A model generated the notes under the pieces. That model was given only the letters and a program-made list of their open reading frames with translations. It was not told the origin of the DNA and did not search any database. 64,000 nt of DNA from contig JABSPM010000034.1 in NCBI GenBank assembly GCA_013215095.1, positions 1 through 64,000 of the forward strand. The letters run 5' to 3'. The DNA is from Flavobacteriaceae bacterium. GTDB taxonomy: Bacteria; Bacteroidota; Bacteroidia; Flavobacteriales; Flavobacteriaceae. A program made the translations under genes and the position numbers. Positions 4,111 through 16,822 of this stretch are shown piece by piece. Each line of letters begins with the position of its first letter. Position 1 is the stretch's first letter.

Positions 4111-4332
4111 ATGACTCTAGCTTTTATTAATTTTAAACACTTCGAAAATAGTGAATCATTTCAATTTGCACTAAATGACACCCAAGCATATGAAAGTTTT
4201 TTTAGTTATTTAAGACAAAAAATAAAAGGTATCGGCACTATGACACAAAATCTCAAAGCACATAGCCTAGAAAGTAAAAGTTATGCTGCTATAGTGCCTA
4301 ATCATTTCAGATACCATTTTACAAAAATATGA
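4111..4332 (+). CDS. Short hypothetical protein overlapping the RibD-like gene
   Basis: A 73-residue open frame rich in Phe, Tyr, Lys and Ser, with no motif I recognise. Its stop overlaps the start of the RibD-like gene in an ATGA arrangement, the same coupling used elsewhere in this operon, which argues that it is, or was, a genuine coding end. It may be the 3' part of a longer gene damaged by the insertion event recorded upstream (3850-3960), since the sequence just before it is open in a different frame. It could be a small first gene of the operon or a truncated relic. Confidence 0.4.
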   Translation: MTLAFINFKHFENSESFQFALNDTQAYESFFSYLRQKIKGIGTMTQNLKAHSLESKSYAAIVPNHFRYHFTKI

Positions 4333-5276
4333 ATGTAGATAATATACTTTGGAAATCACTTTTAAATTTAAAAGAGACAGCTACGAATGGAAATTGTTTA
4401 GGTTGGGTCAATAAGAAAAATAGGTTTAATACATGTTACACAATTGATGATATAAATGACAGTTATACCGCCCTCCTGCTTAAAAAGGGTTTGAAGATTA
4501 ACAATAATGACTTAAATAATTACAAAAAGATAGAAACATCATTTGACTATGTCGATTTATATGTCGCAAACACTATTTCCCAATCACATTTATTCATTCT
4601 GAAAAATTATTGGCCACTAAGTATTCTCAAACATATCAATTTTAAAAACCCATTTATTCTGACACATGCTGCGGTGTCTTTAGATGGCTACTTAGCAACT
4701 ACCAACGGAAATTCTCGTTGGATTGGAAATGAAGAAAATTTAATCCATGCTCATAGGCTACGAGCATTATTTGATGCCGTTCTTATAGGCAGCAATACCG
4801 TTAAAAATGATTGTCCGTCACTAAATGTTAGACATGTTGAAGGTGAAAATCCCATTAGGCTAGTTTTATCAAAGACATCTCGGAATTTTTCGAATCTTAA
4901 AAAGATTAGTAACACAAAAACATTTTTGCTGAGAGTTTCTGATATCGAATTTGTGGATGAGGATGCTATTTTTGATAAGATTATTTATGCCAAAGGATAT
5001 ACCAAAAAAGAGAAACTTATGAGTTTGATTGATAGTTGTAAAAAAGAAAACATTACATCTATTTTAGTTGAAGGCGGAGGAGCTACATTAAGTTCTTTTA
5101 TTGAAACTGATTTAATTAATAGTATGCAACTACATATAGCACCAGTACTCTTTGGTAATGGAATAAAAGCAATACAATTGCCATCAGTAAATCTTGTAGA
5201 TGAAGGTATCAAACTTAAACAAATGGAATTAACCCCTATAGGCGATTCTTTTATGATAACAACAACATTATTATGA
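4329..5276 (+). CDS. RibD C-domain (dihydrofolate-reductase-like) reductase
   Basis: A 315-residue protein whose C-terminal two thirds (about 107-315) is the DHFR-like reductase domain of RibD. Signatures are LTHAAVSLDGYLAT, the basic stretch around RLRALFDAVLIGSNTVKND, and SILVEGGGATLSSFI. In riboflavin synthesis this domain reduces the ribosyl side chain of a pyrimidine with NADPH; related domains reduce pterins. The first 105 residues do not form the usual RibD deaminase domain (no HAE/PCxxC zinc motif) and I do not recognise them. It is translationally coupled at both ends (ATGA at 4329 and at 5273). With a PTPS-like gene two genes downstream, a pterin-like or pyrimidine-derived substrate is likely, not ordinary riboflavin. 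Confidence 0.75.
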   Translation: MNVDNILWKSLLNLKETATNGNCLGWVNKKNRFNTCYTIDDINDSYTALLLKKGLKINNNDLNNYKKIETSFDYVDLYVANTISQSHLFILKNYWPLSILKHINFKNPFILTHAAVSLDGYLATTNGNSRWIGNEENLIHAHRLRALFDAVLIGSNTVKNDCPSLNVRHVEGENPIRLVLSKTSRNFSNLKKISNTKTFLLRVSDIEFVDEDAIFDKIIYAKGYTKKEKLMSLIDSCKKENITSILVEGGGATLSSFIETDLINSMQLHIAPVLFGNGIKAIQLPSVNLVDEGIKLKQMELTPIGDSFMITTTLL

Positions 5277-6220
5277 TACAAGGTTTATGGCATAGTGTGT
5301 CTAAAACGGAAATTATACGTTCTAAACTTCCCAAAATATGGGCAAGTAATGAGGATATTGTTCATAGTAAATATTCCATGATAAGCCTCGGAACGGAAAC
5401 TTTAGTTATGAATAAAAAGGTGCCCGAAAGCATCCAAGACTATATGAAAGTACCCTATATGAAAGGTGATTTTAATTTACCTATTGCTTATGGATATGCT
5501 TTGTCTGGAATACTAAATAATGGCGATAAAGTACACGTAATGCACCCGCATCAAGACAAATGCATTGTTAAGTCTGAAGCTTTATTTAAGGATTGTATAG
5601 ATCTTTCCTTAAAGAAAATTCCGCTTATCAGTAGTATGGAAACCGTATTAAATGCAATATGGGATAGTGATATAGACAATAAAAAGAAAATTGTTGTCTT
5701 TGGATTTGGGAACATAGGCGCATTGTTAGCGACAACAATAAAGTATTATTTTAATTTTGAAGTAATGGTATTTGAGCATAATACATGGAAAAGAGAAAAG
5801 GCAAAACAAATGGGGTTTTCGCTTTTCGAAGAAGATAACACCAAGGGATTTGATATTGCTTTTAATACTACAACAAGCGAAGATATATTACAATTTTGCA
5901 TAAATAATGCTAATGAGGAGGGACAAATAATCGAATTAAGTTGGTATGGCAAACAGAATGTCAGGTTAAATATAGGTGAGAATTTTCACAAAAACAGAAT
6001 ACAAATAAAAAGTTCTCAAGTATCTCAAATTCCAAAACATAAACGCACAGCGTTTGACTTTCACAAACGAAAAACACTAGCTGCTTCTATTTTAAAACAT
6101 AACATTTATGATGATTTAATAACCAATATTATTCCTTTTAAAGAAATACCTGATTTTTTTAATGCTATAAGGCGTAAGGATAAACTACCTGACGGATTAA
6201 TTTATTTAATAAAATACTAA
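5273..6220 (+). CDS. MDR-family (alcohol-dehydrogenase-like) oxidoreductase
   Basis: A 315-residue medium-chain dehydrogenase/reductase. The nucleotide-binding Rossmann fold is clear (VVFGFGNIGALLA, about residues 142-154) and a GroES-like N-terminal domain precedes it. The segment SLGTETLV, where zinc alcohol dehydrogenases carry the catalytic Cys, has no Cys. It resembles the s.GTE motif of BchC-like family members, so catalysis is probably zinc-independent or different. Start and stop are tightly packed: it overlaps the RibD-like gene by 4 bp and leaves 4 bp before the PTPS homologue. It probably acts in the same pathway on a pterin-like or sugar alcohol substrate, which is inferred from neighbours. 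Confidence 0.7.
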   Translation: MIQGLWHSVSKTEIIRSKLPKIWASNEDIVHSKYSMISLGTETLVMNKKVPESIQDYMKVPYMKGDFNLPIAYGYALSGILNNGDKVHVMHPHQDKCIVKSEALFKDCIDLSLKKIPLISSMETVLNAIWDSDIDNKKKIVVFGFGNIGALLATTIKYYFNFEVMVFEHNTWKREKAKQMGFSLFEEDNTKGFDIAFNTTTSEDILQFCINNANEEGQIIELSWYGKQNVRLNIGENFHKNRIQIKSSQVSQIPKHKRTAFDFHKRKTLAASILKHNIYDDLITNIIPFKEIPDFFNAIRRKDKLPDGLIYLIKY

Positions 6221-6224
6221 ATAC

Positions 6225-6599
6225 ATGTACACTGTAAAAGTTAGACAATCTATAATGATAGCACATTCATTAGCACATCCATTTTTTGGCCCAGCCCAGA
6301 ACATGCATGGTGCGACCTATGTCGTGGATGTAATCTTTAAATCAAAAACTATTGATGCGCATAATGTTGTTATAGATATCGGAAAAGCGAAAGCCATAAC
6401 ATCTAAAGTATTAGAAAAATTAAACTATAAAAATCTTGACGAATTACCTCAATTTACAGGTCAACTTACAACAACAGAGTTTTTAGCCAAATATATACAC
6501 GATGAAATAAAAGAAGAAGTCAGCCTTTTTTTTAAAGGTACAATTAATGTTTGTCTAGGAGAAACCCATGATGCATGGGCTAGCTATATAGGTAGTTAA
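6225..6599 (+). CDS. 6-pyruvoyl-tetrahydropterin synthase/QueD-family protein, atypical active site
   Basis: A 124-residue T-fold protein of the PTPS/QueD family. The fold landmarks are IAHSL (His14), the NMHGATYVVDV strand (His28), the VVIDIGKAK loop (Asp51), the TTTEF helix start (Glu85) and the closing GETHDAW (Glu103). By eye several canonical residues are changed. The second His of the zinc motif HGH is Ala30, the catalytic Cys position before it is Ala24, and the His of the LDH motif is Tyr68. The protein may bind a pterin without normal synthase chemistry, or use another mechanism. It sits in an operon with RibD-like and MDR reductases and lipid/glycan enzymes. Confidence 0.75.
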   Translation: MYTVKVRQSIMIAHSLAHPFFGPAQNMHGATYVVDVIFKSKTIDAHNVVIDIGKAKAITSKVLEKLNYKNLDELPQFTGQLTTTEFLAKYIHDEIKEEVSLFFKGTINVCLGETHDAWASYIGS

Positions 6600-6607
6600 T
6601 TATAATT

Positions 6608-7288
6608 ATGACAAATACCGTTCATCAAAATCGTATAGAACTCTGGAGTATTTGTAATGCTTTTGCTCTAGTTATTGGACTCATTTTCACCTTAATTAGT
6701 GAAGAGTTAAATATTCTCCTTGCTGTATTCTCTATATCCATTGCTATATTTATTATTTTGAATATAGAATATATAACAAAGTTGAAATTTCATTTTGGAG
6801 TTGCAAATGCAATAACACTTTTGAGATATCTGATTATTGTGCTTAGCTTTTTATGTATAAATTTTTCAAATACCACATTACTTTTTTATAGTTTATCTAG
6901 TGCTGTAATACTAGATTATTTTGATGGAAAAGCAGCAAGATACTTTAAAGAAAATTCTCTTTTCGGACAATATTTTGACATGGAAATTGATGCGTTTTAC
7001 ACATTACTAATGTGTTGTTTTTATAGCATAATTCAAGAGATTTCATTTTGGATTATAATTCCAGGTGTTTTGAGATATGCTTTTAGATTGTGCACCTTTT
7101 GTTTTCCAAAACCACATGTAAAAGAAGAAAAAAAAACATATGCAACAGTTATTGCAGCGAGCTATTTCGTCGTCCTATTATTAGGACTTATAACGCATGG
7201 CATAATACAGCAACTTATTTTAATTCTGGGTTCGTTAGCTATTGTAATTTCCTTTTCTATAGGCTTTTTTCAGTATTATAAAAATTAA
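6608..7288 (+). CDS. CDP-alcohol phosphatidyltransferase family protein
   Basis: A 226-residue inner-membrane enzyme with about six hydrophobic segments. The complete family motif is present: D103-x2-D106-G107-x2-A110-R111-x8-G120-x3-D124-x3-D128, where the aspartates bind the metals and CDP. Such enzymes join an alcohol head group to a CDP-activated lipid or alcohol, releasing CMP. Which alcohol is used cannot be read from the motif. It follows the PTPS homologue by 8 bp and precedes the glycosyltransferase by 10 bp. It is the point in the operon where a soluble precursor could become membrane-linked. Confidence 0.85.
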   Translation: MTNTVHQNRIELWSICNAFALVIGLIFTLISEELNILLAVFSISIAIFIILNIEYITKLKFHFGVANAITLLRYLIIVLSFLCINFSNTTLLFYSLSSAVILDYFDGKAARYFKENSLFGQYFDMEIDAFYTLLMCCFYSIIQEISFWIIIPGVLRYAFRLCTFCFPKPHVKEEKKTYATVIAASYFVVLLLGLITHGIIQQLILILGSLAIVISFSIGFFQYYKN

Positions 7289-7298
7289 AACGGATATA

Positions 7299-8234
7299 AT
7301 GAAACTGCAATTTTTAAATACTATTCCATTAGAAATCATATCTGGAGGGAATATTTATAATCACCATATTATAAAAGGTCTAATTAACGCTGGTCATGTT
7401 GTAGATTATAATCAAAAACCCAGTCATGTGAACTATGATATAAGCATAGTGGATAGTTTGTATATGAATACTATTAATACTTCTGCATTAGATTGTAATA
7501 AACCTATTGTTAGTCTAATTCATGAGATACCCAAATTAGACCGTGCAACATTGCTGTTTTTTAGCACATATTCTAAATTTGTAGTCACAGGAGCTCCAAT
7601 AAAACAAAGATTAATTGAGAATTGGAATCTTAAAGGAGAGAACATAAGTCTTATTAGACCAGGTTTAGCAAAATATTGGTCTAAAAAAAAACAATATAAT
7701 CGTCAACCAAGACATATTGCTATCGTAGCAAATTTCATTAAACTAAAAGGTTACGACATCCTAATAAAATTAATTACTAAATTAAAGCATTACGATTTAG
7801 AATTTACTATTATAGGCAACCCTACAATGGATGAGAACTACGCAAATGAAATTATAAATGCGATTACACATCTAAAAGCAAAGGTTAAGTTTCATTTTAA
7901 TGTCAAAAACAATGAAGTATATAAGCACGTCATACAATCTGACATATTTTTAAATTTATCTCAATCTGAATCTTTTGGAATGGCTCTTTTTGAAGCATTA
8001 TCTATAGGAATACCAAGTATTTCATCTAAAACTGGAGATTATGTGTATTTCAATCAATTTCCAAATTACTATCCACTCAATGATTATGCTGTTACATCAT
8101 TTACAAATACTATCTTAGACTGGATAAATAATCCCATAAAATATGCTACCTACTGCAAACACTTTAATAAAGAATTCAGAACATGGCCCCATGTAGTTAA
8201 TGAATTTTACAAATTTTTAGAAAACATCAAATAG
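7299..8234 (+). CDS. GT4-type glycosyltransferase
   Basis: A 311-residue GT-B fold glycosyltransferase. The acceptor-side N-terminal half has the usual glycine-rich loop (SGGNIYNH at about 15-22). The donor half contains IAIVANFIKLKGYD, FTIIGNP and the EX7E-like motif SESFGMALFEALSIG with Glu224 and Glu232. It is somewhat shorter than typical GT4 enzymes (about 360-380 residues). It probably transfers a sugar to the product of the neighbouring CDP-alcohol transferase, or to a pterin-like acceptor; pterin glycosyltransferases are known from cyanobacteria. The donor sugar is unknown. The next gene starts 1 bp after its stop. Confidence 0.8.
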   Translation: MKLQFLNTIPLEIISGGNIYNHHIIKGLINAGHVVDYNQKPSHVNYDISIVDSLYMNTINTSALDCNKPIVSLIHEIPKLDRATLLFFSTYSKFVVTGAPIKQRLIENWNLKGENISLIRPGLAKYWSKKKQYNRQPRHIAIVANFIKLKGYDILIKLITKLKHYDLEFTIIGNPTMDENYANEIINAITHLKAKVKFHFNVKNNEVYKHVIQSDIFLNLSQSESFGMALFEALSIGIPSISSKTGDYVYFNQFPNYYPLNDYAVTSFTNTILDWINNPIKYATYCKHFNKEFRTWPHVVNEFYKFLENIK

Positions 8235-8235
8235 G

Positions 8236-8850
8236 ATGCTAGTCATAATTTTAACCATATTACTATTTTATGTCTCACTCATATTAGAACTTTTTTTATA
8301 TGACATACCTAGTGTTGTGGCAACAAAAAAAATTTTAAATTTAGAATTATTAGAAATTAATTACTTTTCTAGGCATATAGCAAAATATTTGACTATGCCA
8401 ATGCCTCAAAAGCTCATCCTTTTTGTATTGCCAATAGCTTTTGTTTATTTACTCCATGCCCTACCCTTATTATACGCTTTAAAACTTCTTCTCACAAAAA
8501 CACCAACAACTTATATTACAAATTTATGGCCTATTGCTATTGCATTGGTAATATTAGGAAGGCTTGTAAGTCATTTATATTTACTACAGATTCAAAAATC
8601 AAAAAAAACCTCCTTTAACCATTTTGTTGTAGATGGAATATTTAAATATAGTAGAAACCCCGGGTTATTAGGCTTATACATAAGTTTTTCAGGCTTTCTC
8701 ATACTACAACCTCATACCATATTTATCATTTGTTATCTGATATATTTGATTCATATGCATTTTAAAATTATTATGGAGGAAGATTATCTTAGTAATAAAT
8801 ACGGCAAAAAATATGCTATATATAAACAAAATACAAAACGTTATTTATGA
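8236..8850 (+). CDS. ICMT/PEMT-like integral membrane methyltransferase
   Basis: A 204-residue membrane protein with about five hydrophobic segments. Its C-terminal half carries the signature of isoprenylcysteine carboxyl methyltransferase and phospholipid methyltransferase-like families: YSRNPGLLGLYISFSG, then EEDYLSNKYGKKYAIYKQN with the conserved Glu pair and Arg/Lys-rich tail. These enzymes use S-adenosylmethionine at the membrane surface. In this operon it could methylate a lipid-linked head group. It overlaps the next methyltransferase gene by 4 bp (ATGA at 8847). Confidence 0.75.
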   Translation: MLVIILTILLFYVSLILELFLYDIPSVVATKKILNLELLEINYFSRHIAKYLTMPMPQKLILFVLPIAFVYLLHALPLLYALKLLLTKTPTTYITNLWPIAIALVILGRLVSHLYLLQIQKSKKTSFNHFVVDGIFKYSRNPGLLGLYISFSGFLILQPHTIFIICYLIYLIHMHFKIIMEEDYLSNKYGKKYAIYKQNTKRYL

Positions 8851-9554
8851 GTAGCATGACATCCAAACAAGAAGAAATAGTTGAGTGGTTCAATACGACA
8901 TATAGTAAAAGAGGGTCTTGGTATTTACGACCAAGACAAGCGTATTATATCTACCTAGAACTTTTACAAGCAGGCTCTAATCAAAAATTATTAGACGTTG
9001 CCTGTGGATTAGGACGCTTATTAGATGCATCTAAAGCATATGGCGTACAACAATATGGTATTGACATCTCTCCGGTAGCTATCAAAAAAGCTAAAAATCT
9101 ATTTCCAAATTTCAATTTATTTGTCGCAAATGCAGAAAAGCTGCCCTTTGATGATGCTATATTTGATTTAATAACATGTATTGGATCTATAGAACGTATG
9201 TTAAACAAAAGTCTTGTGTTTAAAGAAATGTTGAGAGTAGGTAAAAGAAATTGCAGGTATTGTTTTTTGGTTAGAAACTCCGAAACAAGGAGCTGGAAAT
9301 TTTTTAAAGACTTTTTGGGACTTAAAAATAAGGCAGGTCATCAAGATGCCAAAACACTTAAGCAATGGAAAGACATGTTTAGCCTATATGGCTTTAAAGT
9401 TAATGCTATATATCCCGATCAATACCCATTACAGAAGCAGAAGCAGCGTAGTGGATTATGGCTGAAGAAAATAAATTTTAAAAAAATAATTTTCAGCACT
9501 AGACAACTAGAGGATGCGAATGAATTTATATTCTTATTAGAAAAAAATGACTAA
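8847..9554 (+). CDS. Class I SAM-dependent methyltransferase
   Basis: A 235-residue Rossmann-fold methyltransferase. Motif I is LLDVACGLGRLL (about 49-60), the acidic residue after strand 2 is in YGIDIS, motif post-II is VANAEKLPFDD, and IFDLITCIGSIE ends strand 4. The C-terminal part is basic. The substrate is not indicated by sequence. It overlaps both neighbours (ATGA at its start, 8 bp at its end), so it is translated together with the ICMT-like and the following methyltransferase genes. Confidence 0.8.
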   Translation: MSSMTSKQEEIVEWFNTTYSKRGSWYLRPRQAYYIYLELLQAGSNQKLLDVACGLGRLLDASKAYGVQQYGIDISPVAIKKAKNLFPNFNLFVANAEKLPFDDAIFDLITCIGSIERMLNKSLVFKEMLRVGKRNCRYCFLVRNSETRSWKFFKDFLGLKNKAGHQDAKTLKQWKDMFSLYGFKVNAIYPDQYPLQKQKQRSGLWLKKINFKKIIFSTRQLEDANEFIFLLEKND

Positions 9555-10302
9555 CAAAATCGTTAAAAACATATATAACACTTTGCTACATTGGGAAGGA
9601 AAAAACAGCATTAACCCCTATCCTATTCATAAAAAATTGAATCAACATAAATTTGAACACCCATCGGTATATCATTGGATTTCAAGTTATTATAAAATAG
9701 ATTCTAACGCACATATTTTGGACGCAGGATGTGGTGTTGGTTATGGTTCTATATATCTTGCAAAACATTTTAAATGTACCATAAAAGGTATCAGTCTGAG
9801 TGATGCTGAAATAAAAAAAGCTAAGTATTATGCTAAAAAAACATCAGTATCAAATAAAGTATTTTTCCAACAACAGTCTTATGATAATTTGGAAGCAAAT
9901 ACCTATGATTTTATAATAGCTATTGAATCAATTAAGCATTCTTTGGATTTAGATAAGACATTAAACGCATTAATTACGGCTTTAAAACCCAATGGCGTAT
10001 TAATAATAATAGATGATTTTTTAGTGCGAGATACCCATCAAAACATATTTTGTAGATACGCAAGAGATTGGAGATTAAAAACAGATTTAAAATACACGCT
10101 CTTTAATGCGTTTACATTAAAAAAAGATTTAACATCCTACATTAAAACAAAATCAACATTACAATTAAATTTAGGCATATTCATCTTAAATTTGTCAGTT
10201 CCTTTCCATAAAATAGCTCAAATTATAAGAGGTGGTTTGTATTTAGAAATGCTCTATCAAAAAAAAACAGTTAAATATTACGCTTTAGAGTTTAAAAAAT
10301 AG
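9547..10302 (+). CDS. Class I SAM-dependent methyltransferase (small-molecule/lipid type)
   Basis: A 251-residue methyltransferase distinct from its neighbour. Motif I is HILDAGCGVGYGSIYLA, followed by IKGISLSDAEIKKAKYYAKK, which resembles the cyclopropane-fatty-acid/ubiquinone (UbiE-like) group, and IIAIESIKHSLD. It may act on a small hydrophobic or lipid-linked compound. It is the third methyltransferase in a row, which suggests a product with several methyl groups or methylations at successive stages. A 48-base gap follows before the sulfatase-like gene, the longest gap within this operon. Confidence 0.8.
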   Translation: MTNKIVKNIYNTLLHWEGKNSINPYPIHKKLNQHKFEHPSVYHWISSYYKIDSNAHILDAGCGVGYGSIYLAKHFKCTIKGISLSDAEIKKAKYYAKKTSVSNKVFFQQQSYDNLEANTYDFIIAIESIKHSLDLDKTLNALITALKPNGVLIIIDDFLVRDTHQNIFCRYARDWRLKTDLKYTLFNAFTLKKDLTSYIKTKSTLQLNLGIFILNLSVPFHKIAQIIRGGLYLEMLYQKKTVKYYALEFKK

Positions 10303-10322
10303 AAAACGCGATACACAATTAT

Positions 10323-10335
10323 GCGCCATAGGCGC
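10323..10335. repeat. GC-rich mini-hairpin inside the operon
   Basis: GCGCC (10323-10327) and GGCGC (10331-10335) form a perfect 5-bp stem with an ATA loop, in the only sizeable gap of the operon. It stands out in very AT-rich DNA. No T-run follows, so it is not a standard terminator. It may be an mRNA processing or stability element. Confidence 0.35.
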
Positions 10336-10350
10336 CAATCTTAAAAACAT

Positions 10351-12057
10351 ATGAAAGAAATTTTTATTTTTATAATCAATCTATTAGCCATTAATTTTTT
10401 ATGTTTTTTACCCTATTGGTTCATAGGTATATTTTCTAAAATAGATAACTATTCTAAAAAATCTATATTTGAAACATCCCTCTATTTTGCTTTAAAGAGG
10501 ACTATATATCAACGATTTTCTGATGACTTTTTCAGGTTATTATTTGAACTACAAGCCTTAACACTCATAGTATTATTATCAGAAATCACTTACGCTTTAT
10601 ATTTTAAAATGATATACATAGGATTTACCGTCCTATCTTTTTTATACATTGGTTATATAGCAACGATGATAAAAATTTTCAAAAGAGATCCGGTATTTAT
10701 AAACGACTATAGTTTCGCAAAAACAGGAATGCTGGTGTACAACAAAAAATTACCGTATCTTTTGATAGTAATTCTCGTATGCATAAGTGTTGTAAGTTTT
10801 GTGAGTTATACACTTGCGGAAAACCTTATAGCTATATCTTTTCAAATGCAAGAAAAATGGATAATATTAACTATTCTATCTATGCACTTGCTACTCGGAG
10901 TAATTTCTGCAAAAAAAATCCGAAATAACACTTACCATAGTGCTATTAATTTTTCATTTATACACCATATAGCAGCTAATTTTATAAAGTGTTCTCAGTT
11001 AAAAAAATCACTCAAAAAATTAAATAAAAACTCGCCTTACAACTACTTAAAACAAATAAAACTTAAGAATAAACCTAATGTTCTTTTAATATTTTTAGAA
11101 TCCTATGGAAATTTTGCATTGTCAAATGAATTGTATGGCTCTGCATTTAAAAATCATTTAGAAAAAATAAATACATCCTTATCAAAAAATTCTTGGAAAT
11201 TCGCTAGTACACTGAGTGAACCTCCAGTTGCATCAGGAGGTTCTTGGTTAAGTCATTCAAGTATTTTATACGGTGCTAAAGTTAAAGATATTGCGGCACA
11301 TGAAATTATATTTACCCAAACCAACTATGTCGCTACATTAGAATCACTTCCCAAATTTTTAAATTATCATGGATATAAAACCACGCTTACCTCTAGTTTA
11401 TTTTATAGAAAAAATAGTGTAGATTGGGAAAAAGTCAACAACATGTATCCTTATGATAACATCATGCTTTATAATGACTTTTGCTATAAAGGAAAAAAAA
11501 TACCTGTGTTTGACTCCTATGCTTTACCGGATGAGTATATTCTTAATTATGCGTATCAATCAACATCAAATCAAACTCCATTTTGTTTAACTATAAGTAC
11601 AGTAAACTCGCATTACAATTTTGTTTCCCCAATTGCGCCTATGGATCATTGGAAGGATTACAATACTAAAGATTTTCAGATTACCGATGGTCAAAAAAAG
11701 AATTACCTAAAAAATTATTTTTCATCTATAAATTACCAATTCGACTATATTCATAAATTTTTACTTAACAACACTTTAAACAAAGATGCTATTGTACTTC
11801 TAATAGGTGACCACCAACCTCCTTTTATTACACCTGCAAATATTGATAAAAATACACCTATACATGTTATTTCTAAAAATAATGAATTTATAAATGCTTT
11901 TAAAACCTTTGACTATATCAAAGGATTAATACCTAATAAATCTACACAAAAACATGAATCCTTCTTATCAAAATTCATATATGCCTTAAATAAAGCTTAC
12001 GGAGAAGACAAAGAATTAGAACTGCCTATATTTGAAGAGGGCATACAATTGTACTAA
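10351..12057 (+). CDS. LtaS/sulfatase-superfamily membrane transferase
   Basis: A 568-residue protein with about five N-terminal membrane segments (residues 1-195) followed by an extracytoplasmic alkaline-phosphatase-fold domain. Metal-site motifs are IFLESYGN with Glu250 and LIGDHQPPF with Asp487-His488. The nucleophile region is SGGSWLSHSSILYG, where Ser298 (or Ser295) would replace the Thr of LtaS and phosphoethanolamine transferases; that assignment is by eye. Family members move phosphoglycerol or phosphoethanolamine onto glycans or lipids outside the membrane, or hydrolyse sulfate esters. Here it probably decorates the operon's exported product. Two bases separate it from the flippase gene. 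Confidence 0.75.
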   Translation: MKEIFIFIINLLAINFLCFLPYWFIGIFSKIDNYSKKSIFETSLYFALKRTIYQRFSDDFFRLLFELQALTLIVLLSEITYALYFKMIYIGFTVLSFLYIGYIATMIKIFKRDPVFINDYSFAKTGMLVYNKKLPYLLIVILVCISVVSFVSYTLAENLIAISFQMQEKWIILTILSMHLLLGVISAKKIRNNTYHSAINFSFIHHIAANFIKCSQLKKSLKKLNKNSPYNYLKQIKLKNKPNVLLIFLESYGNFALSNELYGSAFKNHLEKINTSLSKNSWKFASTLSEPPVASGGSWLSHSSILYGAKVKDIAAHEIIFTQTNYVATLESLPKFLNYHGYKTTLTSSLFYRKNSVDWEKVNNMYPYDNIMLYNDFCYKGKKIPVFDSYALPDEYILNYAYQSTSNQTPFCLTISTVNSHYNFVSPIAPMDHWKDYNTKDFQITDGQKKNYLKNYFSSINYQFDYIHKFLLNNTLNKDAIVLLIGDHQPPFITPANIDKNTPIHVISKNNEFINAFKTFDYIKGLIPNKSTQKHESFLSKFIYALNKAYGEDKELELPIFEEGIQLY

Positions 12058-12059
12058 AC

Positions 12060-13499
12060 ATGAACTATTTTAGCAGTCAAAATCCATTGAAATCAACGTT
12101 ACTGTTTAGTGTTTTTTCACTTTTACAATTTGGTGTTTCTATAGTATTAGTTCCTATATTTCTTAATTACTTAACTCCAGAAGATTATGGTGTAATTTCG
12201 TTGGTTCTTATTTATGCAACTATCGTTGCAACACTATCTTCATTTGGGCTTAAAAGTGCATTATATACCTTTTATTTTGATTTTGACACCAAGGTCAAAC
12301 GCCATAATTATTTGAAAAATATTTTTTCTGCACATGTGTTATCGTTCATTGTTCTTGGAATTATACATCTATTCCTTGGGAATCAAATTTTTAATCTTGT
12401 ATTTATTTCAAATGAAATCTCATTTTTCTATTATGGATGCATCGCCTTATTATCTAATTTTTTTGCTTTATTAAACAGTCTATATTTTATTTATCTTAAA
12501 AACGAAATTAATCTAAAATCTTACTTTAAATACACATTTAGCACTACCATACTTACTGCTTTTTTACAATTATTCTTTATTGTAATTTGTAAATTAGAAA
12601 TCTATAGTATCTTGTTAGGAACGCTTATACCTCATATAATTATATTCGTGTTCATAACATTCCATAATCCCTTTTTACTTTCTTTTCGATTAGAAAAAGA
12701 ATTAATATATCCATCCTTAAAATATGGCATAAAGCTATTACCATTTCTGTTGTTTTTTGCTCTAGAAAATCAAATTGACCGGTATTTGATTGAAATAAAT
12801 TTTGGCTTAAAACAAGTCGGATTATATGCCGTAATCATCAAATTATTTAGCCTAGTAACTATTACCCTTAACGCCTTGGATGATGGTATAAGACCATTTA
12901 TGTTTAATGATTTAAAACACACAAAAACAACGGCTAATCATTACTTCAATCTCTATTTAGGCTTTGGAATTTTTGCGGTAGTTGTTGTTACATCCATGGG
13001 GTATAACCTGCAATACATAATTGTTAATACGGCGTATTTAGAACTTAAATCATATCTATTTTATGGTGCTATCGTTTTTCTGTTATTAATTCCTATCAGA
13101 TTTTACGCTCTTCTTTTAGTCTTTTACAAGGATTCTTCTAAATTATCGTATTTAACTTGTCTAAAAGTTTTATTTATGATAGTCTTGATGACTGTACTTA
13201 TACCAGAATATCAATTATATGGTGTGTTTTATGCTTTAGTTCTTTCTAACTTAATAAATATTATAGTATTTGCGCTTATATTAAGAAAAAAACTGCTGCT
13301 GCACTTAAGGTTGTTAACCATTATTTATGGTAGCCTTTTCATAATCGGTTCTTATATATTACATCAACAACTCAACACAACTAACGAACTTATTTCCTCT
13401 ATAATCTATCTCATAGTATTTACGAGTTTGTTTCTTTTAATTTATTTTAAAAGTAGTTATGATCTATTAAAAACAGGATTTCAAAATAAATTAGAATAA
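12060..13499 (+). CDS. Polysaccharide/lipid-linked oligosaccharide flippase (MOP superfamily)
   Basis: A 479-residue polytopic protein with about 12-14 hydrophobic segments. It begins with the usual amphipathic N-terminus and first helix (LKSTLLFSVFSLLQFGVS), and carries the NYLTPEDYGVISL stretch typical of Wzx-like flippases. Such proteins move lipid-linked glycans across the inner membrane. It is the last gene of the plus-strand operon and is followed by a hairpin terminator, so export of a membrane-linked product is the likely final step. The gene is extremely AT-rich. Confidence 0.85.
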   Translation: MNYFSSQNPLKSTLLFSVFSLLQFGVSIVLVPIFLNYLTPEDYGVISLVLIYATIVATLSSFGLKSALYTFYFDFDTKVKRHNYLKNIFSAHVLSFIVLGIIHLFLGNQIFNLVFISNEISFFYYGCIALLSNFFALLNSLYFIYLKNEINLKSYFKYTFSTTILTAFLQLFFIVICKLEIYSILLGTLIPHIIIFVFITFHNPFLLSFRLEKELIYPSLKYGIKLLPFLLFFALENQIDRYLIEINFGLKQVGLYAVIIKLFSLVTITLNALDDGIRPFMFNDLKHTKTTANHYFNLYLGFGIFAVVVVTSMGYNLQYIIVNTAYLELKSYLFYGAIVFLLLIPIRFYALLLVFYKDSSKLSYLTCLKVLFMIVLMTVLIPEYQLYGVFYALVLSNLINIIVFALILRKKLLLHLRLLTIIYGSLFIIGSYILHQQLNTTNELISSIIYLIVFTSLFLLIYFKSSYDLLKTGFQNKLE

Positions 13500-13528: not shown

Positions 13529-15217
13529 AGTTTTATTCGCTTTCAAAATATCTATTTGACGTTGTAGCTTGTCTATTTGTTCTTGAATCGTATCCACCTT
13601 GGGTATTGTTTTTAGTGCTTCAAGTTCTGAGTGATGTATTTCTATATCTTTTGCAGATGTTTTGAAATAATGAGGAATACCTTCATCTGTTCTCCACGCT
13701 TCATTGAGTTGGTCATATATCAATTTATCCCAATTGCTAGGGTGCTTGGCATCAATCCAAACCACATCTCTATATTCGACATCAATTAAAGCTAAATCTG
13801 GGGTTGCAGAACCATCAAAATTACCAGAGTCTTCTTTAATTGCAGAAACGGTACCTAAAAAGAACATACGTTTGCGCCCTGCAATATGTTTAATATATGG
13901 TCTAAATTCTACAGGTTTATTAACGGACCAGTCAAATTCTTTTCGAGATTCTATTACCTTCAAGGGCATTGCAGAAACCCCTGCAAAACCTTGTTTTTTT
14001 GAGCCGTGATCATAGTAATATAATTGGTCTCTACCATCTGCTGGAATAAAAACACTAAAACTCAAACTTGTACGCGCATCACCTACTGGTTCTAAGCCAA
14101 ACCAATGGTACAATCCATTATAAGCACCTGTTGGCATTCCTGTAAAATCGAAATCGGTTACAAAAGGGAGTTTATTTTGATCATCTGGTAAATCTGGAAG
14201 CTTTACCGCTGTTTTCATATTCCAAGGTAACGGATCATTAAAACCTCCAATAAATTTAAGAGATTCTGCCTGTAATCGAGATACCTTCTCGGATAGTACA
14301 TTTTGACGTTGGAGATACTTGTGCTGTTGCATTTCTTCTGGGCTAATAAACGTTCCTTTACCAATTAATAAACGTTCTACATAATCTCCAAGGTTATGCT
14401 CTCCATTTTCAATAACTAAAACACCTCCAAAACTTGGATAAGGAAAAAAGAAACCCTTCCATTTTACAAGACTTACAACTTGAACCCAAGCCCCTTTATC
14501 ATTTTTCATATAAAACACATCTCCAGGTTCATATGACAATAGTTTCCATAAGCCAAAACGCTGTACAACTGCATTATATGTGTTTCTGCTAAATTTCATG
14601 GATTCGCCTATTGAAAAGGTTACGGGAATGCGGTTATCACTTGAAAAACGAGGAAAAGGTGTTGTACTAGATACAGCAAACACTTCTTCTGTATTAGCAC
14701 TGATGCCCTGCCAAGCATATTTTTCTGTAGGCTGAATGGCCATAGTCCATTTGTTTTTTCCATCTACACGAACCAAATGCGGCAAGGAAACATCTTTGGT
14801 TTCACCTACACTTTCATTTGCCATAGAAAAAATATTTCGTAATGGCTGAATGCGTTCATTTTGAGTTAATGGCAATTCATTAATTTCTTTAAGATTAAGC
14901 TCATTAAAAACATTATAAGTCTTTATATAATCATACATCTTAAAATGCCAACCAACCACATAAATCGCACCTAGTAGTAGTGTAACAAGACTTAATATCA
15001 GTATTCGTTTTCCTACACTTTCCGCATGTCTAAATATGTTTAAGCCTAAGAGTATTATAAGACTTATTAAAAGTATGATAAAAAAGAACTTACGAATATA
15101 TAGTAATACTGGTTGATAATCATCTCTTAAAATAAATAGAGTAAACGCTAGCACAATACTTAATAAAATTGTCAATGCCTTTTGTTTGATTCCTTTTTGC
15201 CAATAGCGTTTTATCAT
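13520..15217 (-). CDS. Membrane-anchored protein of unknown function
   Basis: A 565-residue protein. Three hydrophobic segments lie near the N-terminus (about 12-30, 38-60 and 72-92), followed by a large, apparently extracytoplasmic region (about 100-525) rich in aromatic residues and Gly/Pro turns. It ends in a Lys/Gln-rich coiled coil (TIQEQIDKLQRQIDILKANK). I do not recognise the family. It probably forms a unit with the upstream gene 15287-15817, 69 bp away on the same strand. Well-formed codon use across its length argues for a real gene. No catalytic motif stands out. Confidence 0.6.
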   Translation of the reverse strand: MIKRYWQKGIKQKALTILLSIVLAFTLFILRDDYQPVLLYIRKFFFIILLISLIILLGLNIFRHAESVGKRILILSLVTLLLGAIYVVGWHFKMYDYIKTYNVFNELNLKEINELPLTQNERIQPLRNIFSMANESVGETKDVSLPHLVRVDGKNKWTMAIQPTEKYAWQGISANTEEVFAVSSTTPFPRFSSDNRIPVTFSIGESMKFSRNTYNAVVQRFGLWKLLSYEPGDVFYMKNDKGAWVQVVSLVKWKGFFFPYPSFGGVLVIENGEHNLGDYVERLLIGKGTFISPEEMQQHKYLQRQNVLSEKVSRLQAESLKFIGGFNDPLPWNMKTAVKLPDLPDDQNKLPFVTDFDFTGMPTGAYNGLYHWFGLEPVGDARTSLSFSVFIPADGRDQLYYYDHGSKKQGFAGVSAMPLKVIESRKEFDWSVNKPVEFRPYIKHIAGRKRMFFLGTVSAIKEDSGNFDGSATPDLALIDVEYRDVVWIDAKHPSNWDKLIYDQLNEAWRTDEGIPHYFKTSAKDIEIHHSELEALKTIPKVDTIQEQIDKLQRQIDILKANKTKN

Positions 15218-16303: not shown

Positions 16304-16822
16304 ATGACTACGATAAATAAATTAACAATCATTTTTGGGTTGACAATTGGATTAATTGTTTTAATATCCTGTCAGAATGAATCTTTATACGAAACTGAAA
16401 ACGCACAACAAATAGATTTAAAATCTTCAACACAAAAAGACGAGGCTAGCAAAATAGACCATCTACTAACTAAATTAAGACCGTCTATAGATAGCAAATC
16501 TAAAAAAATAGGAGATTTTGAAGCAATGACATTTGAAATCGTAAGAAATAATGACACTGGTGAAATTACAATTGAAAATATAAAAGCAGAACCATATTTT
16601 CCATTAAACACAAATATTAACAAAACTGGTGGTTATCAAATTGATTGTGACATGGGTGGAGACGGAAGTAATGACTGGAGTGATTCTTGTGGAGGTGCCT
16701 ATTCTTGCGGTAAACTAGCAAAAAAATGTTTAGACGCTGGTGGTGCAACGGCTTGCGCTCAAAAAGCAACAAATAGTAATTACAATTCCGTTAAATTGAT
16801 ATATGTAGCCAATTTAAAATAA
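16304..16822 (+). CDS. Small cysteine-containing lipoprotein, unknown
   Basis: A 172-residue predicted lipoprotein. The hydrophobic N-terminus (LTIIFGLTIGLIVLISC) ends in lipobox LISC with acylated Cys23. A charged linker rich in Lys, Ser and Asp follows (about 24-110). The C-terminal domain (about 115-172) has five Cys residues and many Gly, Asp and Asn: IDCDMGG, DSCGGAYSCGKLAKKC and ATACAQ. An odd Cys number in a cell-surface domain suggests disulfides plus one free or metal-bound Cys. I do not recognise the family; similar leaders plus short Cys-rich tails occur in flavobacterial surface proteins. It is monocistronic, with its own terminator and a long upstream gap. Confidence 0.65.
   Translation: MTTINKLTIIFGLTIGLIVLISCQNESLYETENAQQIDLKSSTQKDEASKIDHLLTKLRPSIDSKSKKIGDFEAMTFEIVRNNDTGEITIENIKAEPYFPLNTNINKTGGYQIDCDMGGDGSNDWSDSCGGAYSCGKLAKKCLDAGGATACAQKATNSNYNSVKLIYVANLK

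Follow-up and report, generated by a model that had tools for sequence, protein, structure and literature searches.

Within COG0720, the PTPS-I, -II and -III proteins carry CxxxHGH, CxxxxxHGH or ExxHGH motifs, and a fourth subfamily, PTPS-IV, represented by SCO6650, has lost the catalytic residues (PMC5041015 and PMC5445326). The signature of PTPS-IV is FGPAQ, and the neighbourhood of a cluster of 561 such sequences includes PF00925 and PF01872; the former is explained in PMC5445326 as GTP cyclohydrolase I/FolE2, but its Pfam name is GTP cyclohydrolase II. In the section of PMC5445326 consulted here the neighbourhood consists of these two families only, a dehydrogenase, GT4 glycosyltransferase, methyltransferases, CDP-alcohol transferase, flippase and LtaS-fold protein not being mentioned, and no product is given. 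PTPS-IV is an orphan, tied in PMC5041015 only to unpublished work on archaeal F420. The present analysis concerns a set of ten genes at 4329-13499 in a 64,000-nucleotide stretch from a Flavobacteriaceae bacterium (assembly GCA_013215095.1, contig JABSPM010000034.1, positions 1 to 64,000; hereafter the window), in which a PTPS-IV gene is joined to all of these additional families. This gene set, or cassette, is a genuine unit that recurs in several phyla. It would represent one form, extended by a membrane module, of a widespread and as yet nameless PTPS-IV pathway leading from GTP to a lipid-linked, exported, pterin-like product, a reading to which roughly even weight was given on the evidence of sequence. 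The features, all on the plus strand, were as follows:

4111..4332, + strand: decayed ribA (GTP cyclohydrolase II) remnant, 73 codons (pairwise blastp to cassette RibA)
4329..5276, + strand: RibD_C-type reductase with no deaminase domain (PF01872, 117.1 bits)
5273..6220, + strand: zinc-less MDR dehydrogenase, BchC-like (PF00107, 25.2 bits, below cut-off)
6225..6599, + strand: PTPS-IV protein, FGPAQ..HGAT (PF01242, 86.2 bits)
6608..7288, + strand: CDP-alcohol phosphatidyltransferase (PF01066, 59.9 bits, full motif)
7299..8234, + strand: GT4 glycosyltransferase (PF00534, 75 bits)
8236..8850, + strand: PEMT/ICMT-type membrane methyltransferase (PF04191, 33.8 bits, over cut-off)
8847..9554, + strand: class I S-adenosylmethionine (SAM) methyltransferase a (PF08241, 59.7 bits)
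9547..10302, + strand: class I SAM methyltransferase b (PF13489, 58.6 bits)
10351..12057, + strand: membrane-anchored LtaS-fold transferase of the alkaline phosphatase superfamily, 568 aa (AlphaFold2 model)
12060..13499, + strand: Wzx/MOP-type flippase (PF13440, Polysacc_synt_3, 50.2 bits)

The ten open reading frames (ORFs) were all open and lay head to tail, with intergenic gaps of -4, 4, 8, 10, 1, -4, -8, 48 and 2 bases in order, so that both places and spacing agreed with the preliminary description of this DNA, which had listed ten tightly packed genes with a single gap of 48 bp. Three terminator-like sites were identified between 3400 and 13700, on the minus strand only, against a chance expectation of 3.0.

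Recurrence of the gene set was examined by scanning genome contigs, one genome per species, with a PTPS-IV alignment, which returned at least 594 stretches, of which at least 588 were confirmed; the best 80, being nearest to the query, were kept. By their titles, these best 80 of at least 588 stretches represented seven phyla: Bacteroidota, Pseudomonadota, Actinomycetota, Planctomycetota, Spirochaetota, Gemmatimonadota and Myxococcota. In total, 90 records were taken in, 82 loci and the window were kept, and 65 had complete flanks of 8.5 kb; seven loci (L045, L051, L058, L072, L084, L095 and L108) were lost to an overlap filter, despite the seed PTPS being present in 90/90. Across the 65 loci, MDR was found in 64, GT4 in 63 (using a generic search model), a core methyltransferase in 44, RibD in 35, the CDP-alcohol transferase (CDP transferase) in 31, RibA in 29, cytochrome b561 in 24, an LtaS-fold protein in 20 and a creatininase-family protein in 10, while flippases were of the LPG_synthase_TM type in 25 and of the window's Wzx kind in 2. 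Nine plasmid loci among the 65 had been picked by their dehydrogenase, and without them MDR was present in 55/56. Fusions of RibA with RibD and of GT4 with RibA were counted under a single role, the RibD match of L067 resembles a DHFR-type protein, and unbiased clustering of neighbours was blurred by antisense ORFs. Several roles were concentrated within 4.25 kb of PTPS rather than beyond it (RibD, 31 against 4; RibA, 23 against 6; cytochrome b561, 23 against 1), and no such concentration was seen for the LtaS-fold gene (9 inner, 11 outer) or creatininase (4 and 6). The cytochrome b561 gene (L021, L022, L031, L032 and 20 others) may point to a redox function for the product.

The same roles were sought in 23 control stretches of 17 kb. 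Ten Bacteroidota genomes supplied 20 of these, an Agrobacterium plasmid one and the remainder of the window two. RibD, MDR, PTPS, RibA, methyltransferases, the LtaS-fold gene and all other roles but two were each found in 0/23, and the CDP transferase (24.5 bits, a weak match) and GT4 in 1/23 each. Searching plasmids with the dehydrogenase by tblastn matched 85 records, and in eight annotated neighbourhoods (Rhizobiaceae, Thiodictyon, Methylosinus, Rhodobacteraceae, Streptomyces and Haloarcula) a PTPS homologue came after the dehydrogenase, with GT4 and/or a methyltransferase behind it; role models showed the same pattern in a ninth record, which is from Streptomyces and unannotated. The Haloarcula copy (L024, 7346-11190) was divergent, its PTPS lacking FGPAQ at 28% identity and being accompanied by GTP cyclohydrolase IIa. 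Conservation across phyla, for which the preliminary description had proposed a neighbourhood survey, was thereby confirmed, and its converse, chance co-occurrence in this strain only, was not observed.

The window PTPS protein carries FGPAQNMHGATY in place of the CxxxHGH-type motif, together with LNYKNL. When it was compared with the genome's two other PTPS homologues, both of which have intact CxxxHGH or CxxxxxHGH motifs, A24 stood in place of the catalytic Cys, N67-Y68 in place of the catalytic Asp-His pair and A30 in place of the third zinc His, while the substrate-anchoring Glu113 (E113) was kept and was invariant in the aligned rows. The FGPAQ signature was invariant in 8/8 aligned PTPS-IV rows. 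A profile of eight PTPS-IV proteins had one close solved structure, SCO6650 (3d7j, 1.5e-63), the next match being at 3.7e-7; SCO6650 is labelled uncharacterised in the PDB, and a 2008 paper reportedly found it to lack both PTPS activity and the zinc site. Identification as QueD or as a PTPS-I, -II or -III enzyme was rejected, since all three catalytic residues and a zinc ligand were replaced; the window protein also scored under the cut-off of each of the three PTPS-type models listed from NCBIfam. The 'PTPS/QueD homologue' of the preliminary description was thus right as to family and wrong as to QueD. Both the FGPAQ signature and the PF00925 and PF01872 neighbourhood (RibA in 29/65 and RibD in 35/65 relatives) agree with PTPS-IV, the window's version of that neighbourhood having RibD intact and RibA as a remnant only.

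This remnant, directly upstream of the ten genes, had gone unmentioned in the preliminary description. The stop-to-stop frame that holds the ORF at 4111-4332 matched cassette RibA, that of genome G037, at 43.5 bits (blastp, E = 1.9e-9), and the ORF alone gave 35.4 bits, compared with 24.6 bits for the best piece among 200 base-shuffled controls. Since the RibA profile model did not score the remnant higher than shuffled sequence, the call is based on pairwise blastp. The open frame matching RibA reaches upstream to about 4063, and the end of the remnant, with its stop, shares 4 nt with the start of RibD, as does the intact RibA of G411, a genome of the same family. Intact RibA occurred at the corresponding place in L033, L035, L037, L038 and L120, and the gene order RibA-RibD-MDR-PTPS was found in these four Bacteroidota loci (L033, L035, L037 and L038) and in L120. 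These comparisons indicate that the operon formerly began with ribA, now decayed. A single RibA domain is encoded elsewhere in the window genome, in a 398-aa frame, and may feed the operon; because the operon's own ribA has decayed, it is probably this RibA that opens GTP here. The window genome (G000) also has two GTP cyclohydrolase I genes (contigs C6 and C114), though it is GTP cyclohydrolase II that is indicated by the relatives of the cassette.

The reductase has an extra N-terminal part of ~100 residues, and no deaminase domain was found by Pfam. Its nearest solved relatives (2azn, 9no2 and 6p8c) are RibD-type or pyrimidinone/uracil phosphate reductases, and a second RibD_C copy is present in the genome on contig C42 (344-aa frame). 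A bifunctional RibD was rejected, the protein having RibD_C only and scoring 116.5 bits with TIGR00326 against a cut-off of 156.35. An ArfC/Rib7-like enzyme is suggested by the RibD_C domain, by such reductases being among the nearest solved structures and by fusions with RibA in four loci, while the score was under the TIGR01508 cut-off. These RibA-RibD_C fusion proteins, of 452-497 aa, were encoded in four actinobacterial loci (L054, L057, L062 and L103). Similarly, a 551-aa frame in L041 (10393-12048) joins a GT4 domain (residues 9-326) to a GTP cyclohydrolase II domain (354-536), which ties the glycosyltransferase to the GTP start. The RibA tyrosine that we take to decide between a formyl intermediate and full turnover showed no switch in the creatininase loci, being kept in 35/38 rows, with 3 lacking a readable motif. 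RibA was present in 8 of the 10 creatininase loci, and creatininase-family proteins fit a GTP cyclohydrolase II entry because the formamidase that Sinorhizobium requires to make riboflavin was originally annotated as a creatininase (PMC9478397). Given the remnant, the gene order and the RibA-RibD fusions, GTP cyclohydrolase II followed by the RibD_C reductase would be the most likely entry to the pathway, and a GTP-derived start is well supported.

The dehydrogenase matched PF00107 in its NAD half only (25.2 bits against a cut-off of 31.8) and NCBIfam bchC at 37.5 bits, also below cut-off. At the place that we take to be that of the catalytic zinc-ligand Cys it has Ser38 (ISxGTE), invariant in 11/11 rows, and a zinc-dependent alcohol dehydrogenase was rejected on account of this replacement. 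In L025, a protein annotated as the glucan glucosyltransferase MdoH lies upstream of the dehydrogenase, its cluster being present in 18 loci, L102 included. The membrane methyltransferase passed the PEMT cut-off (PF04191, 33.8 against 25) and not that of ICMT (PF04140, 20.3 against 24), which corrects its earlier description as 'ICMT-like'. Its homologues were found in L039, L041 and L099; those of methyltransferase a were 48% identical in L039, 45% in L099 and 40% in L041, and those of methyltransferase b occurred in L039, L041, L099 and L027.

The membrane module comprises the CDP transferase, the flippase and the LtaS-fold protein. CDP-alcohol phosphatidyltransferases share the motif DxxDGxxAR(x8-9)GxxxDxxxD, and its residues, in the form DxxDGxxAR(x8)GxxxDxxxD, were invariant in 9/9 sequences; by profile, the nearest enzymes were choline phosphotransferases, followed by serine, glycerol-phosphate and inositol-phosphate enzymes. 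A flippase was found in 23/31 loci with the CDP transferase and in 4/34 without (p = 2.8e-7), and the LtaS-fold gene in 16/31 and 4/34 respectively (p = 1e-3), both p-values being overstated because the loci are related. The CDP transferase lay within 4.25 kb of PTPS in 26 cases and farther in 4; it directly followed PTPS in the window and L033, and stood in differing gene orders in Rhizobiaceae, Actinomycetota, Halomonadaceae and one planctomycete. Mirror-tree correlations (r 0.50-0.90, reached by 0/500 permutations) count for little, as they are largely expected from common descent. Homologues of the window flippase occurred in L034 and L039.

The 568-aa protein had no Pfam match at 1e-3, sulfatase included, and a weak NCBIfam choline-sulfatase match (18.7 bits against a cut-off of 433). 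Its AlphaFold2 model (mean pLDDT 73.9, pTM 0.70) has a helical, membrane-like N-terminus and was most similar to LtaS (Z 19.9, rmsd 4.2, 285 aligned), followed by GacH (Z 19.3), EptC (18.7) and sulfatases (Z 17-18). Five residues, E250, S298, H421, D487 and H488, to which putative nucleophile and metal-binding roles are given by analogy to LtaS, were invariant in 10/10 sequences. On the model, the protein is predicted to have an LtaS-like fold with a putative active site. A plain sulfatase was disfavoured, with LtaS and GacH ranking first and no Pfam sulfatase match at 1e-3, although sulfatase folds still reached Z 17-18; the phrase 'LtaS/sulfatase-like' in the preliminary description finds support in the fold and not in Pfam.

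A scheme was assembled from the families, motifs, conserved gene set, fusions and remnant, all of which are read directly from the sequence; its substrates, order of steps and final structure are inferred. GTP would be opened by GTP cyclohydrolase II, with the activity probably supplied here from elsewhere in the genome, to give 2,5-diamino-6-ribosylaminopyrimidinone phosphate, the ribose of which would be reduced by the RibD_C reductase, the 2-amino group being retained by this deaminase-less enzyme. The PTPS-IV protein, a T-fold protein that retains the glutamate by which a 2-aminopyrimidinone or pterin is anchored but not the QueD/PTPS catalytic residues, and the zinc-less NAD(P)-dependent dehydrogenase would then produce a pterin-like head group, to which GT4 might attach a sugar and the three methyltransferases methyl groups. 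The CDP transferase could link the molecule to lipid through a phosphodiester, the flippase could move it to the outer side, and the LtaS-fold enzyme could place a phosphoglycerol- or phosphoethanolamine-like group on it outside the cell. On these assignments it is likely that the core steps lead from GTP through a reduced 2-aminopyrimidinone to a compound that is modified, glycosylated and methylated. That the compound is a pterin is suggested by the anchoring Glu and the PTPS fold, while the lipid link, which is moderately supported, is based on the predicted functions of the CDP transferase, flippase and LtaS-fold genes and on their co-occurrence. Tentatively, and with the balance somewhat against it, the product may constitute a new class of membrane lipid with a GTP-derived, methylated and glycosylated pterin or 2-aminopyrimidinone head group made via GTP cyclohydrolase II, flipped and decorated outside, its cassette spread between phyla and its role lying in periplasmic redox, light or signalling functions.

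Several observations weigh against a single GTP-to-lipid pathway. The window operon has no intact RibA, its reductase fell below the cut-offs of the NCBIfam archaeal reductase (TIGR01508, 105.4 against 186.45 bits) and RibD C-terminal models (132.9 against 150.15), and the association of RibD with RibA among the 65 loci was no better than chance (p = 0.80, fusions counted once). Only MDR, PTPS and GT4 were present in eight Arthrobacter/Pseudarthrobacter loci (L048, L050, L061, L068, L071, L087, L101 and L112). The window CDP protein alone matched no solved relative at 0.01 and, as choline phosphotransferases were nearest by profile, the enzyme could use CDP-X with diacylglycerol instead of CDP-diacylglycerol with an alcohol. 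Finally, no CDP transferase was found within the locus in 34/65 relatives, for which reason the lipid link and membrane module are treated as an extension of the pathway and not its core. This last count, set against the near universality of MDR, PTPS and GT4, also favours two modules sharing a locus, i.e., a soluble PTPS-IV metabolite made by RibA, RibD, MDR, PTPS-IV, GT4 and methyltransferase, beside an independent phospholipid or glycan module, and the even spread of the LtaS-fold gene near and far from PTPS points the same way. Such an arrangement is nevertheless rather unlikely, given that the CDP transferase is mostly close to PTPS in differing gene orders across groups and directly follows it in the window and L033; its distances also track those of MDR (r 0.90, 37 loci), although common descent alone could produce this. 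A decaying island, in which ribA has been lost and the remaining genes may no longer make a product in this strain, would account for the remnant and for a patchy presence (PTPS-IV in 2/395 genomes of the phylum, the window's own included), but it is improbable where all ten ORFs are open, nine have a G411 counterpart of similar length and the RibA domain elsewhere in the genome could feed the pathway.

Two further explanations would assign the PTPS protein to a known cofactor. Ribityl-aminopyrimidines are among the precursors of F420, which favours a part for PTPS-IV in making F420 or a precursor of it. The assignment of PTPS-IV to archaeal F420, as unpublished work in PMC5041015, does likewise. 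Yet CofD (TIGR01819) was found in 0/3 Bacteroidota genomes with the cassette, as against 3/14 control genomes over the cut-off, and a deazaflavin role leaves GT4, the CDP transferase and the flippase unexplained; F420 was rejected for these three genomes because CofD was not found there, and the explanation is very improbable overall. The least probable of all was an extra QueD/PTPS paralogue supplying queuosine or folate/biopterin from within an unrelated glycolipid operon. The Pfam PTPS match of 86 bits speaks for it, against which stand the replaced catalytic Cys, Asp and His and one zinc His, the two other homologues with intact motifs in the same genome, and the scores under all three NCBIfam cut-offs.

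Homologues of 10/10 window genes, in a different order, were found in L039, from a gammaproteobacterial metagenome-assembled genome (MAG), nine in L099, from another gammaproteobacterium, eight in L041, from Planctomycetota, and seven in L034, from a Flavobacteriaceae MAG. In G411 the order was RibA-RibD-MDR-PTPS-GT4-PEMT-MTa-MTb-X-CDP (MT, methyltransferase), followed by a sulfotransferase-like gene and then by the LtaS-fold gene on the opposite strand; RibA and sulfotransferase were assigned by Pfam, RibD, MDR, PTPS, CDP and LtaS-fold by alignment, and the others by inspection. The sulfotransferase-like gene (10110-10916) and an APS kinase (13908-14426) stand beside this cassette (L120, G411:C3), and since both adjoin it the product may be sulfated in G411.

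Within the window's own phylum, PTPS-IV was detected at 1e-20 in 2/395 genomes, and the CDP gene in 3/100 genomes of the family, one weakly and the window's own counted. In the dehydrogenase tree, the partner of the window was a Saprospiraceae MAG (98/94), not G411, and the two gammaproteobacteria fell inside the Bacteroidota group, positions that point to transfer between lineages, though single positions are unsure because several rows have long branches and unusual composition. As the preliminary description had stated, the ten genes were more AT-rich than their neighbours, with a mean GC of 29.4%. The 37 other non-overlapping ORFs of the window that reach 120 aa or more averaged 34.2%, and 0/37 were below 29.4%. 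Third-codon-position GC was nearly equal (0.230 for the ten genes and 0.250 for the others, p = 0.053), however, and because it differs so little GC is weak evidence for transfer; the horizontal acquisition proposed earlier on that basis finds better support in the tree and the patchy distribution, which together point to transfer of the cassette between lineages. Near the region, at 16304-16822, an ORF encodes a small putative lipoprotein with a C-terminal stretch rich in Cys and Gly.

The gene set offers a concrete, testable pathway for PTPS-IV, a subfamily with at least 588 confirmed stretches among genomes sampled once per species. No paper pairing a CDP-alcohol transferase with pterin-type genes was found, in a search confined largely to open-access papers. 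The preliminary description likewise knew of no characterised pathway that combines pterin chemistry, a CDP transferase and a flippase, but the core of PTPS-IV with FGPAQ, RibA (PF00925) and RibD (PF01872) is already partly in print (PMC5445326).

Other known systems resemble individual segments of the cassette. With LtaS and GacH, both phosphoglycerol transferases, the window protein shares its fold, a membrane-like N-terminus and a conserved putative active site, at about 15% identity and with EptC-type and sulfatase folds only 1 to 2 Z lower. In the synthesis of Bacteroidetes inositol lipids, a CDP-alcohol transferase puts a polyol head group, inositol, on lipid, and we know of no GTP-derived enzymes in it. 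This synthesis, the subject of PMC9246714, served as the comparison system for the CDP transferase. The early riboflavin pathway in its reductase-first form shares GTP cyclohydrolase II, a deaminase-less RibD_C reductase and, in some loci, the creatininase-family protein, whereas PTPS-IV, MDR, GT4 and the membrane enzymes follow only in the cassette; the window genome's RibBA-type and deaminase-length RibD frames are on other contigs. In that reductase-first order, RibA or the archaeal ArfA/ArfB is followed by ArfC. Cyanobacterial pterin glycosides (cyanopterin and biopterin glucoside) are made via GTP cyclohydrolase I and PTPS-II, to our knowledge with no CDP transferase, flippase or LtaS-fold enzyme, and as glycosylated, partly methylated pterins they represent one plausible type of product for the cassette.

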